Virus record (IMG/VR): IMGVR_UViG_3300042351_000193
Coordinates: 1-21,032 of that record
Length of the DNA stretch: 21,032 nucleotides
Direction: 5' to 3' (one strand)
Source of the DNA: a virus
Below the pieces are notes generated by a model. The model was not told the DNA's origin. It worked only from the letters and a program-made list of their open reading frames with translations, and searched no databases. This document shows, piece after piece, positions 7,539-13,992 of the stretch (within the stretch, counting starts at the first letter, position 1; every line of letters begins with the position of its first letter). Made by a program: the position numbers and the translations under genes.

Positions 7539-8360
7539 TTAATCAGTACAATATCCAGCTTGACATCCGCTTCCAGTTCCAAAGAAAAAGTCTTGTTGCA
7601 ATCCTATTTTTTTAAATTGTTCGTAAGTACCTTCCTTTTTAAATCGTTTAGATTTTGTTTCTTGGTCTGCAAACCATTGCATCTTTTTAGTTTCTAAATC
7701 CCAATTCTTTCTTAATTGTTGTAATGGCTTATGGAAGCATCCCACACAATTTGAGTCATCAGGGAATATCAATTGAGTTGTATCGACCCATTTCTTAACA
7801 TCGTAATGAGTAACTCTATTTTCTATCAATGGAAAATAACCTTCTCGCCATTCTATTTCTTCCCACTTGTTTCGTACCCCCCCCCCTTGCTTACCTATTA
7901 TTCCCTTGAATGAAGTACTAAACCTTTCTGCTCTTTCCATTTCATCGTATCTAAATCCAATGCCCATCTTTACTTTTTCTCCAATGTGTTTAAACCACCA
8001 ATCCCAAATAGGTCGCATCTTCATTTCGGTTGTGCAAAATCTCCATTGTTGATTTGGTAATCCTTTTCCTCCAGTTGCTTTTCGATTAACTTCTTCAAAA
8101 GTATTTCCCGTTACCCATATAATTTCTTTTCCTATTAATTGCTCTAAATCTATAACTGCCTTTAAAGTTATATCCGATTCCGCAGTTGCTATAAACTCTT
8201 GACCTATCTTATCTGAAATAAATTGAACTAGTTTTAAATCTTTTGGAGTGCATCTTTTATCCTCAATTCTAATTAAAGAAAATAGATTATAATCAGCTGG
8301 GTAATGATAAGCAAGGTAACTCGATGTCTTGCCTCCGCTTAATGAATTAATTGATTTCAT
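7539..8360 (-). CDS. PAPS reductase-like ATP pyrophosphatase (PP-loop, Cys-rich)
   Basis: A 273-residue member of the adenine nucleotide alpha-hydrolase superfamily. The PP-loop is SLSGGKTSS at residues 6-14. RFCTTEMKM (about 107-115) matches the RxCTxxxK motif of this family. Two Cys pairs follow: CVGC at 205-208 and CQAGYC at 266-271, which with C109 could hold an Fe-S cluster or zinc. Phage members of this family are commonly annotated as PAPS reductases, but sulfate reduction by a phage is unlikely; sulfur or nucleotide modification of DNA or tRNA (DndC- or ThiI-like chemistry) fits better. A run of ten G encodes part of KQGGGV (about 158-162). It overlaps the nuclease gene by 4 nt. Confidence 0.88.
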   Translation of the reverse strand: MKSINSLSGGKTSSYLAYHYPADYNLFSLIRIEDKRCTPKDLKLVQFISDKIGQEFIATAESDITLKAVIDLEQLIGKEIIWVTGNTFEEVNRKATGGKGLPNQQWRFCTTEMKMRPIWDWWFKHIGEKVKMGIGFRYDEMERAERFSTSFKGIIGKQGGGVRNKWEEIEWREGYFPLIENRVTHYDVKKWVDTTQLIFPDDSNCVGCFHKPLQQLRKNWDLETKKMQWFADQETKSKRFKKEGTYEQFKKIGLQQDFFFGTGSGCQAGYCTD

Positions 8361-9529: not shown

Positions 9530-9730
9530 TTAATTATTATTTTTTAATCTTCCGTGACTTGTGTATAACCGTAAATCTATCGTATCCGTATAAATATCCT
9601 CAAATTCGGAAATTCCGAATATTACTTTTGCCTCTGATTTTTTTTGTATTGTCTGTTTATTTTTCAAAGCATAATAGTAAGCATAGCTAATTAATGCTAT
9701 TGCAGTAATGTAAATTATTTTTCTTTTCAT
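9530..9730 (-). CDS. Small membrane-anchored protein
   Basis: A 66-residue protein beginning MKRKIIYITAIALISYAYYYALKN: a short basic N-terminus and one hydrophobic helix (about residues 5-22), followed by a polar domain of about 40 residues. This is either an uncleaved anchor or a signal peptide without a clear cleavage site; there is no lipobox Cys. The ATG at 9730 overlaps the upstream stop (ATGA) and is preceded by the recurrent TTAAACCAA motif 7 nt upstream. Function unknown. Confidence 0.7.
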   Translation of the reverse strand: MKRKIIYITAIALISYAYYYALKNKQTIQKKSEAKVIFGISEFEDIYTDTIDLRLYTSHGRLKNNN

Positions 9731-10476
9731 TTTTCGTTTGGTTTAATAGTTCCATCATTATCAATAAAGCAATCAAATGTAACTAAACTATTGACAAATT
9801 TAATATAACCTTGAGTTTTGCAGTGCATCTTCCTTTCTTCAATATCCTGAATGATAGAATATTTATTCCAAAGTTCAATTCGTTCTTCTTTTGATATCGT
9901 TGGAATCTTAAATTGCTCCAGGTAATCAAAGAGAATTGACAAACCTCCAGCGATAAACGTAAACTTTTTATCGTTCTTCTCGCAAAACCTTATTTGATTT
10001 GCATATTCATTAGCAGTATCAATCGCTTGCTTCTTTAATTCTTGGTCACTTGGCTTTTCTCTCACTGGCTCTATTGGTTTAGGTAAGTTTTTAATTTCTT
10101 CTTTTGAGTATTCAATATAGGCATTCATAATCCTACCAAAATATTCACAAGAAAAATTCTCATAGCATTTAGCATCGACATTTAACTTGCCAGCAACTGC
10201 CATTTCAAAAGCAATCTTTATTTCTTCGCAAGTATTATTTCCAAAATTAGACTTAACAAAATTAGTCAATACAACCTTTTCTTCTTCAGTTGGTAAATTG
10301 TTTCCTCTTAAGCCAACTAAAACCATTGTGTAACGTAATGCTTGCTTTATATCTTCTTCGTTCCTTACACGTAAAGCAATGGCGCTTTGTGCTTGTTGTA
10401 TTGCTATTGCATTACCACTTCCGTAAGGCTTCCATTCTTGCGGCACTTGTTCCGAGTTTCTCAGTTGTATTTCCAT
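9727..10476 (-). CDS. Conserved phage protein next to the replication gene, function unknown
   Basis: A 249-residue soluble protein from ATG 10476, overlapping the replication gene by 65 nt. Recognisable conserved phrases are KQALRYTMVLVGLRGNNLPTEEEKVVL (residues about 44-70) and FEMAVAGKLNVDAKCYENFSCEYFGRIMNAY (about 89-119), which I recall from many Bacteroidetes phages in the same position after the replication initiator. There is no Walker A motif, so it is not a DnaC-type ATPase loader. A Lys/Glu-rich linker (about 120-150) separates a helical C-terminal part. The position suggests a replication accessory (for example initiator partner or helicase recruiter), which is inference. Confidence 0.75.
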   Translation of the reverse strand: MEIQLRNSEQVPQEWKPYGSGNAIAIQQAQSAIALRVRNEEDIKQALRYTMVLVGLRGNNLPTEEEKVVLTNFVKSNFGNNTCEEIKIAFEMAVAGKLNVDAKCYENFSCEYFGRIMNAYIEYSKEEIKNLPKPIEPVREKPSDQELKKQAIDTANEYANQIRFCEKNDKKFTFIAGGLSILFDYLEQFKIPTISKEERIELWNKYSIIQDIEERKMHCKTQGYIKFVNSLVTFDCFIDNDGTIKPNEK

Positions 10477-11083
10477 TATTGTTAAATTTAGTTTTGTTTT
10501 GCATCCAAGTTTTTACTCTGCGACTAATATCAAAAAACTTTTCTGACTCCCATCTTGGTTTACCTTTTTTATCAGCTTCCATCCAATAAGAAACAAAATT
10601 TTCATATTCATCTCCTATTTCAGATTGAACCATAGTAACCATATCATAAAAAGAAATTTGTTTGTCTTTCACTACTCTTTCTTTATTATTAGTATAATTA
10701 TTATCTTCTTGTTTACTATAATCATTATTACTAATATTTGATTGTTTTCCTATATTAGGATTTTCCTCATTAGGTTTTCCTGTTATTAGGTTTTCCTCAA
10801 TAGGAATTTCGTATAGTAGGTAATCAACTACCCAAAAACCTTTATTATTTTGATATCTATTTCGTGCTAAATAACCAAAATTTTCCAATTCTTTTAAAGC
10901 AGATATTACACTTGGTAAGCCTTCCTTTACTTGCTTTGAAATACGTTCTGCAGAGAACTCCCAGTTGTCAGGCTTTGATTGAATGTAAGCATACATCCCT
11001 TTTGCCTTAAATGAAATATGAATGCTATTCAGCAAATCATTAGGTATTGTTCCGTACCTATTTTTAATAATTAATTTACCCAT
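10412..11083 (-). CDS. Winged-helix replication protein (lambda O-like layout)
   Basis: A 223-residue protein. Residues about 10-95 form a winged helix: IPNDLLNSIHISFKAKGMYAYI, SKPDNWEFSAERISKQ, and LKELENFGYLARNRYQ. A polar Asn/Glu-rich linker (about 95-140) follows, and the C-terminal part has FVSYWMEADKKGKPRWE and FDISRRVKTWMQN, as in the C-terminal helicase-contact domain of phage O/DnaD-like proteins. It would bind the origin and recruit host replicative helicase. The linker-coding DNA contains tandem repeats that may be its binding sites. A promoter and an attenuator-like leader lie upstream. It overlaps the next gene by 65 nt. Confidence 0.85.
   Translation of the reverse strand: MGKLIIKNRYGTIPNDLLNSIHISFKAKGMYAYIQSKPDNWEFSAERISKQVKEGLPSVISALKELENFGYLARNRYQNNKGFWVVDYLLYEIPIEENLITGKPNEENPNIGKQSNISNNDYSKQEDNNYTNNKERVVKDKQISFYDMVTMVQSEIGDEYENFVSYWMEADKKGKPRWESEKFFDISRRVKTWMQNKTKFNNNGNTTEKLGTSAARMEALRKW
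10681..10797 (-). other. Putative replication origin: iterons plus AT-rich segment inside the replication gene
   Basis: Within the linker-coding part of the replication gene the plus strand holds attaggattttcct at 10754-10767 and attaggttttcct at 10769-10781 and 10785-10797, preceded by a partial copy at 10744-10751: repeats of about 13 bp with 14-16 bp periodicity. Each contains the near-palindrome AGGTTTTCCT. The adjacent 10681-10740 is only about 15% G+C and could serve as the unwinding element. Lambda and relatives have four iterons and an AT-rich stretch in the middle of the O gene, so the arrangement matches an initiator-embedded origin. Confidence 0.6.
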
Positions 11084-11194: not shown

Positions 11195-11225
11195 CAAATA
11201 TAAAAAAACTAAACCGATTTACAAA
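11195..11225 (-). promoter_or_regulatory. Bacteroidetes-type promoter of the replication gene
   Basis: On the minus strand TTTG (11225-11222) is followed after 19 nt by TATATTTG (11202-11195), matching the Bacteroidetes primary-sigma consensus (-33 TTTG, -7 TAnnTTTG, spacing about 19). Transcription would start near 11188, giving an untranslated leader of about 105 nt before ATG 11083. The -33 box overlaps the end of the upstream gene. Confidence 0.75.
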
Positions 11226-12392: not shown

Positions 12393-12698
12393 TTAAAAAG
12401 GTAAATCGTCATTAACTAACTCAGCACTTGGCTGACCTTGTATTGGTAATACTGGCGCTGGCTTTGAAACTGGAGTGTTTAATCCTTCCGTTCCTTTTAC
12501 CTTAAAGTTGCCCAAGATAGGAGCATTACTTTCGGGAGTTTTAACTCCGTCTTGCGTTACGAAACCGAAGTTTCCGTATTGGTCAGCATCCTCTTTTAAG
12601 AATCCGCTGATGTTTAGGTAAGTACCTTTCTTACCCTTGTACAATTTAGACTTGTCTAACAAATCTACGTTAATTGAAATGCTTACTAACTTGCTCAT
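12393..12698 (-). CDS. SSB-like single-strand DNA-binding protein
   Basis: A 101-residue protein with an N-terminal beta-rich half (SISINVDLLDKSKLYKGKKG, then YLNISGFLKED, FGFVTQDG) compatible with a small OB fold, a Pro-rich disordered part, and the C-terminus NDDLPF. The acidic tip ending in D-D-(I/L)-P-F is the hallmark of bacterial SSB, which uses it to dock replication and recombination partners. The N-terminal half is shorter than bacterial SSB and does not show its usual motifs, so it is a divergent phage type. It lies directly downstream of ERF (4-nt gap), its natural partner. Confidence 0.8.
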   Translation of the reverse strand: MSKLVSISINVDLLDKSKLYKGKKGTYLNISGFLKEDADQYGNFGFVTQDGVKTPESNAPILGNFKVKGTEGLNTPVSKPAPVLPIQGQPSAELVNDDLPF

Positions 12699-13785: not shown

Positions 13786-13825
13786 TTTTTGATTGGTTTA
13801 AGTTTATTATTTGTTTTTGTTGAGA

Positions 13826-13833
13826 CAAATATA
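13826..13833 (-). promoter_or_regulatory. Probable -7 box of the early operon
   Basis: TATATTTG on the minus strand fits the Bacteroidetes -7 consensus TAnnTTTG and lies 40 nt before the first early start codon (13785). The expected -33 TTG at a 19-nt distance is not present (T-rich instead), so the promoter may be weak or need an activator. A 55-nt stretch of extreme AT content lies upstream. Confidence 0.5.
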
Positions 13834-13891
13834 TACCTATTATTTTAAATAAAAAAACTTTTTATAAAATTATTATAATTATTTATTTAAC

Positions 13892-13937
13892 GGTCATATA
13901 AAACAAAAATCCCCACCGATATGACCAGTAGGGATTT
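13892..13937 (-). terminator. Terminator hairpin with pseudoknot potential at the late/early junction
   Basis: In the minus-strand RNA AAATCCCTAC (13937-13928) pairs with GTGGGGATTT (13916-13907) over 10 bp, with one U-G pair that would be C-A in the opposite strand's RNA, so the structure is made for the minus strand. TTGTTTT follows. The loop carries GGTCATAT (13926-13919), perfectly complementary to ATATGACC (13899-13892) after the U-rich stretch, which gives an H-type pseudoknot with connecting loops of 1, 2 and 7 nt. It would end transcripts of the phosphoesterase/lysis operon. Confidence 0.65.
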
Positions 13938-13981
13938 CATTTACTTAAACCTATTTAACAAAAAATTTAACTATGAAAAAA

Positions 13982-13989
13982 CAAATATA
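13982..13989 (-). promoter_or_regulatory. Second -7 box upstream of the junction hairpin
   Basis: TATATTTG on the minus strand sits directly after the phosphoesterase stop. No -33 TTG at the right distance is seen. A transcript from here would begin with the junction hairpin and a 17-codon ORF, MKSLLVISVGIFVLYDR (13940-13887), that spans it. It may be a promoter whose readthrough is attenuated, or a chance match in AT-rich DNA. Confidence 0.35.
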
Positions 13990-13992
13990 ATA

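Follow-up and report, generated by a model that had tools for sequence, protein, structure and literature searches.

Origins embedded in the gene of their own initiator are already known, for example from lambda and TP901-1. In lambda and the Stx phages, the initiator gene has iterons and then an AT-rich tract at its centre, and additional iterons lengthen the protein (PMC7466680). The oriL of SPP1 likewise has direct repeats in the gene for the initiator gp38 together with an AT-rich unwinding element (PMC6316719). Rep of Lactococcus phage TP901-1 (ORF13) and Rep2009 of Tuc2009 are reported, in a paper later than the original one on TP901-1, to bind direct repeats located in their own genes and serving as ori (PMC8965321). 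Among plasmids, the ori of pSK41 is central in rep, where it codes for a linker, and is bound by the winged-helix N-terminal domain (NTD) of Rep; the NTD of pPR9 Rep is described as pfam13730 and as having a relative in a phage replication protein (PMC5703833).

The locus described here is a well supported further case, judging from its sequence. It lies in a linear virus record of 21,032 bases that was analysed whole and that we call the window. The features needed below are:

11195-11225, minus strand: match to the Bacteroidota-type -33/-7 promoter upstream of rep, TTTG...TATATTTG (consensus match only)
10412-11083, minus strand: rep, encoding a winged-helix (HTH_36) replication initiator of 223 aa (PF13730 and phrog_428 matches)
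10802-11059, minus strand: predicted winged-helix DNA-binding domain, residues 9-94 (AF2 model and fold matches)
10802-10810, minus strand: degenerate iteron-like unit 0, GAAATTCCT, encoding E-I-P, 14 bp 5' of unit 1
10788-10797, minus strand: iteron 1, AGGAAAACCT, in the frame that gives (E)-E-N-L (conserved codons)
10772-10781, minus strand: iteron 2, AGGAAAACCT, in the other frame, (T)-G-K-P; relatives have AGGAAATCCT, AGGAATTCCT or AGGTTTTCCT
10757-10767, minus strand: iteron 3, AGGAAAATCCT, in the frame that gives (E)-E-N-P (repeat match and codon conservation)
10744-10751, minus strand: truncated iteron 4, AGGAAAAC, encoding G-K-Q; many relatives have AGGAAAACC (repeat match)
10671-10743, minus strand: AT-rich tract and candidate DNA unwinding element, encoding disordered linker (G+C, codon and AT tests)
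10481-10654, minus strand: helical C-terminal domain (residues 144-201), with modules that vary among relatives (AF2 helices)
9727-10476, minus strand: next gene, overlapping the end of rep, a candidate helicase loader (synteny, Bacteroidota-phage matches and a weak lambda P model match)

The product of rep matches phrog_428, 'replication initiation protein' (E 1.7e-16), and PF13730 (HTH_36; E 8.9e-6, 25.9 bits against a curated cutoff of 25). HTH_36 is the sole Pfam match at E <= 0.1; the search found neither a RepA_N domain nor a DnaB_2/DnaD C-terminal match. The AF2 model has a mean pLDDT of 68, falling below 50 at residues 98-142, which we regard as a disordered linker. With VIA-align the model resembles the DnaB primosome protein (Z 9.8), the Rep NTD entries of pSK41 type (Z 8.1 for 4pql, 7.4 for 5kbj and 7.3 for a third), RctB domain 1 (Z 7.7) and the DnaD NTD (Z 7.2), and the Foldseek E-values for these fold matches are about 1e-3 at best. 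The predicted fold thus matches that of known initiators (DnaB, pSK41-type Rep NTD, RctB and DnaD).

On the plus strand, the repeats read ATTAGGATTTTCCT at 10754-10767 and ATTAGGTTTTCCT at 10769-10781 and 10785-10797, with the partial copy GTTTTCCT at 10744-10751. In the direction of the gene the units run GAAATTCCT - AGGAAAACCT - AGGAAAACCT - AGGAAAATCCT - AGGAAAAC, and the four AGG units are spaced 16, 14 and 16 bp from start to start. Directly 3' of the array, G+C drops to exactly 0.15 at 10681-10740, compared to 0.34 over the window, and only 0.55% of the 60-bp windows are this poor in G+C. A sequence-only reading of this DNA had described the repeats, the partial copy, the 14-16 bp spacing and the adjoining 60 bp of about 15% G+C, all of which we find at the places it gave. 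It had also placed them in the linker-coding part of a winged-helix replication gene, in agreement with the HTH_36 and PHROG matches and the disordered linker. The origin-like layout of iterons and AT-rich tract that it proposed for this region is likewise supported by our comparisons of sequence. Separately, a non-coding stretch at about 13786-13992, without iterons and possibly regulatory, contains the 60-bp windows with the least G+C in the record (down to 5%, near 13825-13844).

TP901-1 Rep is a homologue of the Rep described here (tblastn 30.6%, E 1e-7; HTH_36 E 2.4e-5), and the TP901-1 gene carries TTTTCCAGATGTGG repeats 15 bp apart, followed by CTACTAAATACTAAT. The two phages differ in host phylum, and TP901-1 Rep has a DnaB_2-type C-terminal domain, unlike Rep here. 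The TP901-1 repeats are read in one frame whereas those of the window are read in two, with a core flanked by A and T (AGG..CCT), unlike that of TP901-1. In TP901-1 the ssb gene stands just before rep; in the window a gene for a small protein ending in DDLPF stands between Erf and rep. This gene (12393-12698, minus strand) follows that of the Erf annealing protein, and the ending of its product resembles the acidic tips of single-strand binding proteins.

The likeness to the lambda O / ori-lambda and Stx-phage origins is one of layout only, and the lambda iterons are longer and of another sequence than those of the window. In lambda the initiator gene is followed by P, and here the model of the next gene's product weakly resembles P (see below). 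The likeness to SPP1, which has an additional oriR elsewhere, is again one of layout. The NTD of pPR9 Rep and the Rep described here belong to the same Pfam family (pfam13730); pSK41 and pPR9 are plasmids, the pSK41 NTD is RepA_N rather than HTH_36, and pSK41 Rep is larger (319 aa), so that the fold resemblance to pSK41-type NTDs (Z 7.3-8.1) is a likeness of kind, not membership.

Since spacings of 16 and 14 bp are not multiples of three, the same iteron word is read in two frames, as GAA-AAC-CTA (ENL) or GAA-AAT-CCT (ENP) in one and as GGA-AAA-CCT (GKP) in the other. A repeated peptide therefore cannot explain the DNA repeats. We randomised the gene 20,000 times, holding the peptide fixed and drawing codons according to the phage's own usage. 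Three AGG-N4/5-CCT dyads are observed compared to a mean of 0.18 (at least three in about 1 of 20,000 randomisations), and seven cross-frame pairs of identical 8-mers compared to 0.07 (again about 1 of 20,000). Close homologues use AAC in ENL and AAT in ENP, codon choices that preserve the position of CC.

The same signal is found across the clade. We aligned 39 clade genes and, for pairs sharing a residue, compared the fraction using the same codon with an expectation taken, amino acid by amino acid, from the winged helix. This fraction is 0.91 in the iterons (0.56 expected) and 0.85 in the AT-rich tract (0.60 expected), with a bare excess in the C-terminal part of Rep (0.62 for 0.56 expected). 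Pro94 in unit 0 has the same codon in 489 of 489 such pairs, and the E, N and P codons of iteron 3 do not vary among clade pairs sharing the residue. At least one AGG-N4/5-CCT dyad is present in 39 of 40 distinct viral homologues and three or four in 25 of the 40, with zero in L072 under this strict pattern.

Where the peptide changes, the dyad persists. In L045, L046 and L071 ENP becomes EIP or EIL and the dyad is retained as GGAAATCC; in L060-L068 GKP becomes GIP with the dyad as a perfect palindrome, AGGAATTCCT; in L048-L050 it becomes GFP, with Phe for Lys, encoded by AGGTTTTCCT, the unit of the window in reverse complement; and an Asn to Ser change in homologues likewise leaves the dyad intact. 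Homologues that keep the peptide and lose the DNA repeats had been named beforehand as the case against an origin, and the alignment gave the opposite. The earlier claim that the repeats dictate the linker peptide is thus borne out by the two frames, the frozen synonymous codons and the residues changed under a constant dyad. Judged from codon choice, these results show that four to five AGG-N4/5-CCT dyads, arrayed at intervals of about 15 bp, are kept at the DNA level, and that the adjoining tract is likewise kept as AT-rich DNA; in rep itself the tract has an AT content of 0.87 compared to the 0.79 predicted by its own codon usage.

To place the locus in its family, we searched with Rep using tblastn and found homologues in 233 phage records; scans with the single proteins of a Bacteroides phage (VA7) and a Pseudoalteromonas phage (PHS3) gave one further locus each. 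The HTH_36 model matches most of the homologues tested, several of them below the Pfam cutoff, and the sequence matches of the distant homologues are modest. We compiled 26 distant genes from phages of Bacillota, Bacteroidota, Pseudomonadota, Actinomycetota and Helicobacter, and most have repeats that recur about every 15 bp directly 3' of the wing, with a GG-A4/5-CC core and usually C..G flanks (for example CGGAAAAACCGTAT in VA7, CCGGAAAATCCGCTT in BK649P1, ACGGAAAATCCGTTA in NIIg3.2 and TCGGAAAAACCGTTC in fHoEfm07). The array is not clear in Helicobacter COL 5-PUJ or in the short genes of Elener, SA01 and bajarodcaudo, and those of Lv-1 and TP901-1 consist of two or three units only. The 16/14 spacing is also found in Oenococcus phage Krappator149.

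Over 28 genes, a set that is diverse and, as in all our statistics on related sequences, not independent, the self-similarity of the linker DNA peaks at a lag of 15 (0.478 compared to 0.428 in synonymous controls, z 10.6), with a smaller excess at lags 14 and 16 and little at other lags. We consider this test stronger evidence than the family-wide count of GG-N4-6-CC, for which the excess is modest (85 compared to 61, sd 6, in the synonymous control), part of the motif being imposed by the peptide anyway. The 60 bp 3' of the array fall within the lowest 10% G+C of their own gene in 22 of 27 genes. With array ends set by hand in 26 genes, the mean AT content of the tract is 0.74 compared to 0.66 expected from the peptide and each gene's own codon usage; no gene lies below its own-codon-usage mean (Wilcoxon statistic 0), 17 of the 26 are individually enriched at P<=0.05, and the AT-enriched tracts include some from G+C-rich Actinomycetota phages. 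The sequence-only reading had proposed that this design arose independently, which does not hold: the initiator family spans several phyla, most members have the same kind of iterons and AT tract at the same position, and TP901-1 Rep is homologous. From these comparisons, the ancestry of the module, iterons and AT tract within the gene, is apparently common across phyla.

The tract itself may contain a further element. CTACTAA follows the array in 9 of 28 genes compared to about 1.2 expected under synonymous randomisation, and stands directly 3' of the iterons in L073, L076, L080, L091, L094, L097 and L098. The recognition element of Bacillus subtilis DnaD, CTACTATTACT, consists of TnnT strings (PMC10201434), and the tract starting with CTACTAA in HTH_36 phage genes is alike. 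TnnT strings in the AT tract exceed the synonymous control in length, but only weakly (Wilcoxon P 0.015 over 26 genes, 6 individually at P<=0.05). This sequence resemblance is suggestive of a DnaD-recognition-like element in the unwinding tract.

It is conceivable, as a tentative reading that we consider rather doubtful in its full form, that HTH_36 phage initiators of at least four phyla inherited one ancestral in-gene origin module. Such a module would consist of dyadic GG-A4/5-CC iterons with a 15-bp period and, at a constant position behind them, an AT tract often starting with CTACTAA, so that the linker would code for the iterons and a strand-specific helicase-loading element. The clade of the window would have switched the outer base pair from C-G to A-T, and its array would have entered two frames.

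One explanation for the DNA repeats is that selection acts on a repetitive peptide, either a flexible linker or a motif for protein binding (ENPxxGKP, for instance), and that the repeats simply follow from it. Most family members do have a quasi-repetitive peptide with a period of five residues, and its Pro and Glu/Gly positions are conserved. Against this stand the one word in two frames, the frozen synonymous codons, the replacements of Lys by Phe and of Asn by Ile or Ser that retain the dyad and the lag-15 self-similarity of the DNA above its synonymous control (z 10.6). We regard this explanation as largely refuted and give it a very small probability. An alternative is that the repeats are putative Rep sites of mainly regulatory function, in autorepression or in copy-number or incompatibility control, and that the true origin lies elsewhere. 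In iteron plasmids the binding of iterons can serve regulation and origin alike, which favours this alternative. A scan of the window with a clade-derived matrix, from which the 11-bp unit was left out, nevertheless gave two strong sites, both inside the array (scores 20-21), and none of like strength elsewhere in the 21-kb record, the rep promoter region included (next best 9.6). The adjoining AT tract is furthermore selected at synonymous sites throughout the family, and the repeats of the homologous TP901-1 are reported as ori. A mainly regulatory array is thus improbable, if somewhat less so than a selected peptide.

The conserved island might also mark a recombination joint, at which initiator halves are exchanged within the linker and the DNA is kept by homogenisation rather than by origin function. 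Several observations fit such exchange: the C-terminal half of Rep is swapped among modules behind one constant winged helix and array (L014-L017, L020-L025 and L060-L072 compared to the window), L024 and L025 align to Rep through the C-terminal part only, and in distant phages HTH_36 precedes C-terminal domains of differing families. Exchange cannot, however, create dyads with a period of about 15 bp within one gene, or account for their retention by distant phages of different sequence. We consider homogenisation a highly improbable source of the island, and recombination at the linker may act in addition to origin function.

Taken together, the segment at about 10671-10810 is, we predict with high confidence from sequence, the theta-type replication origin of this phage, located within the gene of its own initiator. 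The winged-helix NTD of Rep would bind the dyads, and the Rep-DNA complex would open the adjoining AT-rich tract. The host helicase and replisome would then be recruited by the C-terminal domain of Rep, perhaps with the product of 9727-10476, and the encoded linker would act as a disordered tether whose sequence is dictated mainly by the DNA. GC skew, suggested earlier as a check, does not change sign here, although nearly every gene is on the same strand. No replicative helicase was recognised in the 21-kb linear record, and the replication module of this fragment may therefore be incomplete.

The gene at 9727-10476 belongs to a family that is found after rep in almost every clade locus (28-100% identity) and whose matches are confined to Bacteroidota phages. 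In the Staphylococcus and Enterococcus homologue loci, the equivalent position is occupied by a DnaC-like helicase loader. The product has a confident, helical AF2 model (pLDDT 85). In VIA-align this model ranks lambda P from the DnaB-P complex first, but weakly (Z 6.0 over 81 residues), at a level that a helical protein could reach by chance. Foldseek with this model gave nothing convincing, and sequence-profile searches of the product found no helicase loader. A small match to a photosystem II 11 kDa protein (E 3e-4) was judged a helical-bundle resemblance. The product is a candidate helicase loader of an undescribed family.

Several lines of evidence agree with the Bacteroidetes background suggested by the sequence-only reading and support a Bacteroidota host background. 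A Shine-Dalgarno-like 4-mer precedes only 3 of 29 genes, the -33/-7 promoter match lies upstream of rep, the next gene has matches in Bacteroidota phages alone, and there is one prophage homologue of Rep in a Chitinophagaceae genome. That genome alone matched among 395 searched from its phylum, so close relatives are rare in sequenced hosts, and a terminase comparison gave no clear host. The window also encodes a phosphoadenosine phosphosulfate reductase-like protein (phrog_424) at 7539-8360 on the minus strand.

Less expected than another initiator-embedded origin are an array read in two frames, a module whose ancestry apparently spans phyla and the suggestive CTACTAA/TnnT motif. The array in two frames serves as a natural control, separating selection on DNA from selection on protein, which the usual arrays of 15 bp, or five codons, cannot do. 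An origin is predicted with confidence for a clade of uncultured phages that probably infect Bacteroidota, together with a simple rule: immediately behind the winged helix stand dyads of GG-A4/5-CC with a period of about 15 bp and a tract that is AT-enriched at synonymous sites. This rule should find origins in many HTH_36 phages and prophages in which the gene is annotated merely as 'hypothetical' or 'helix-turn-helix'.
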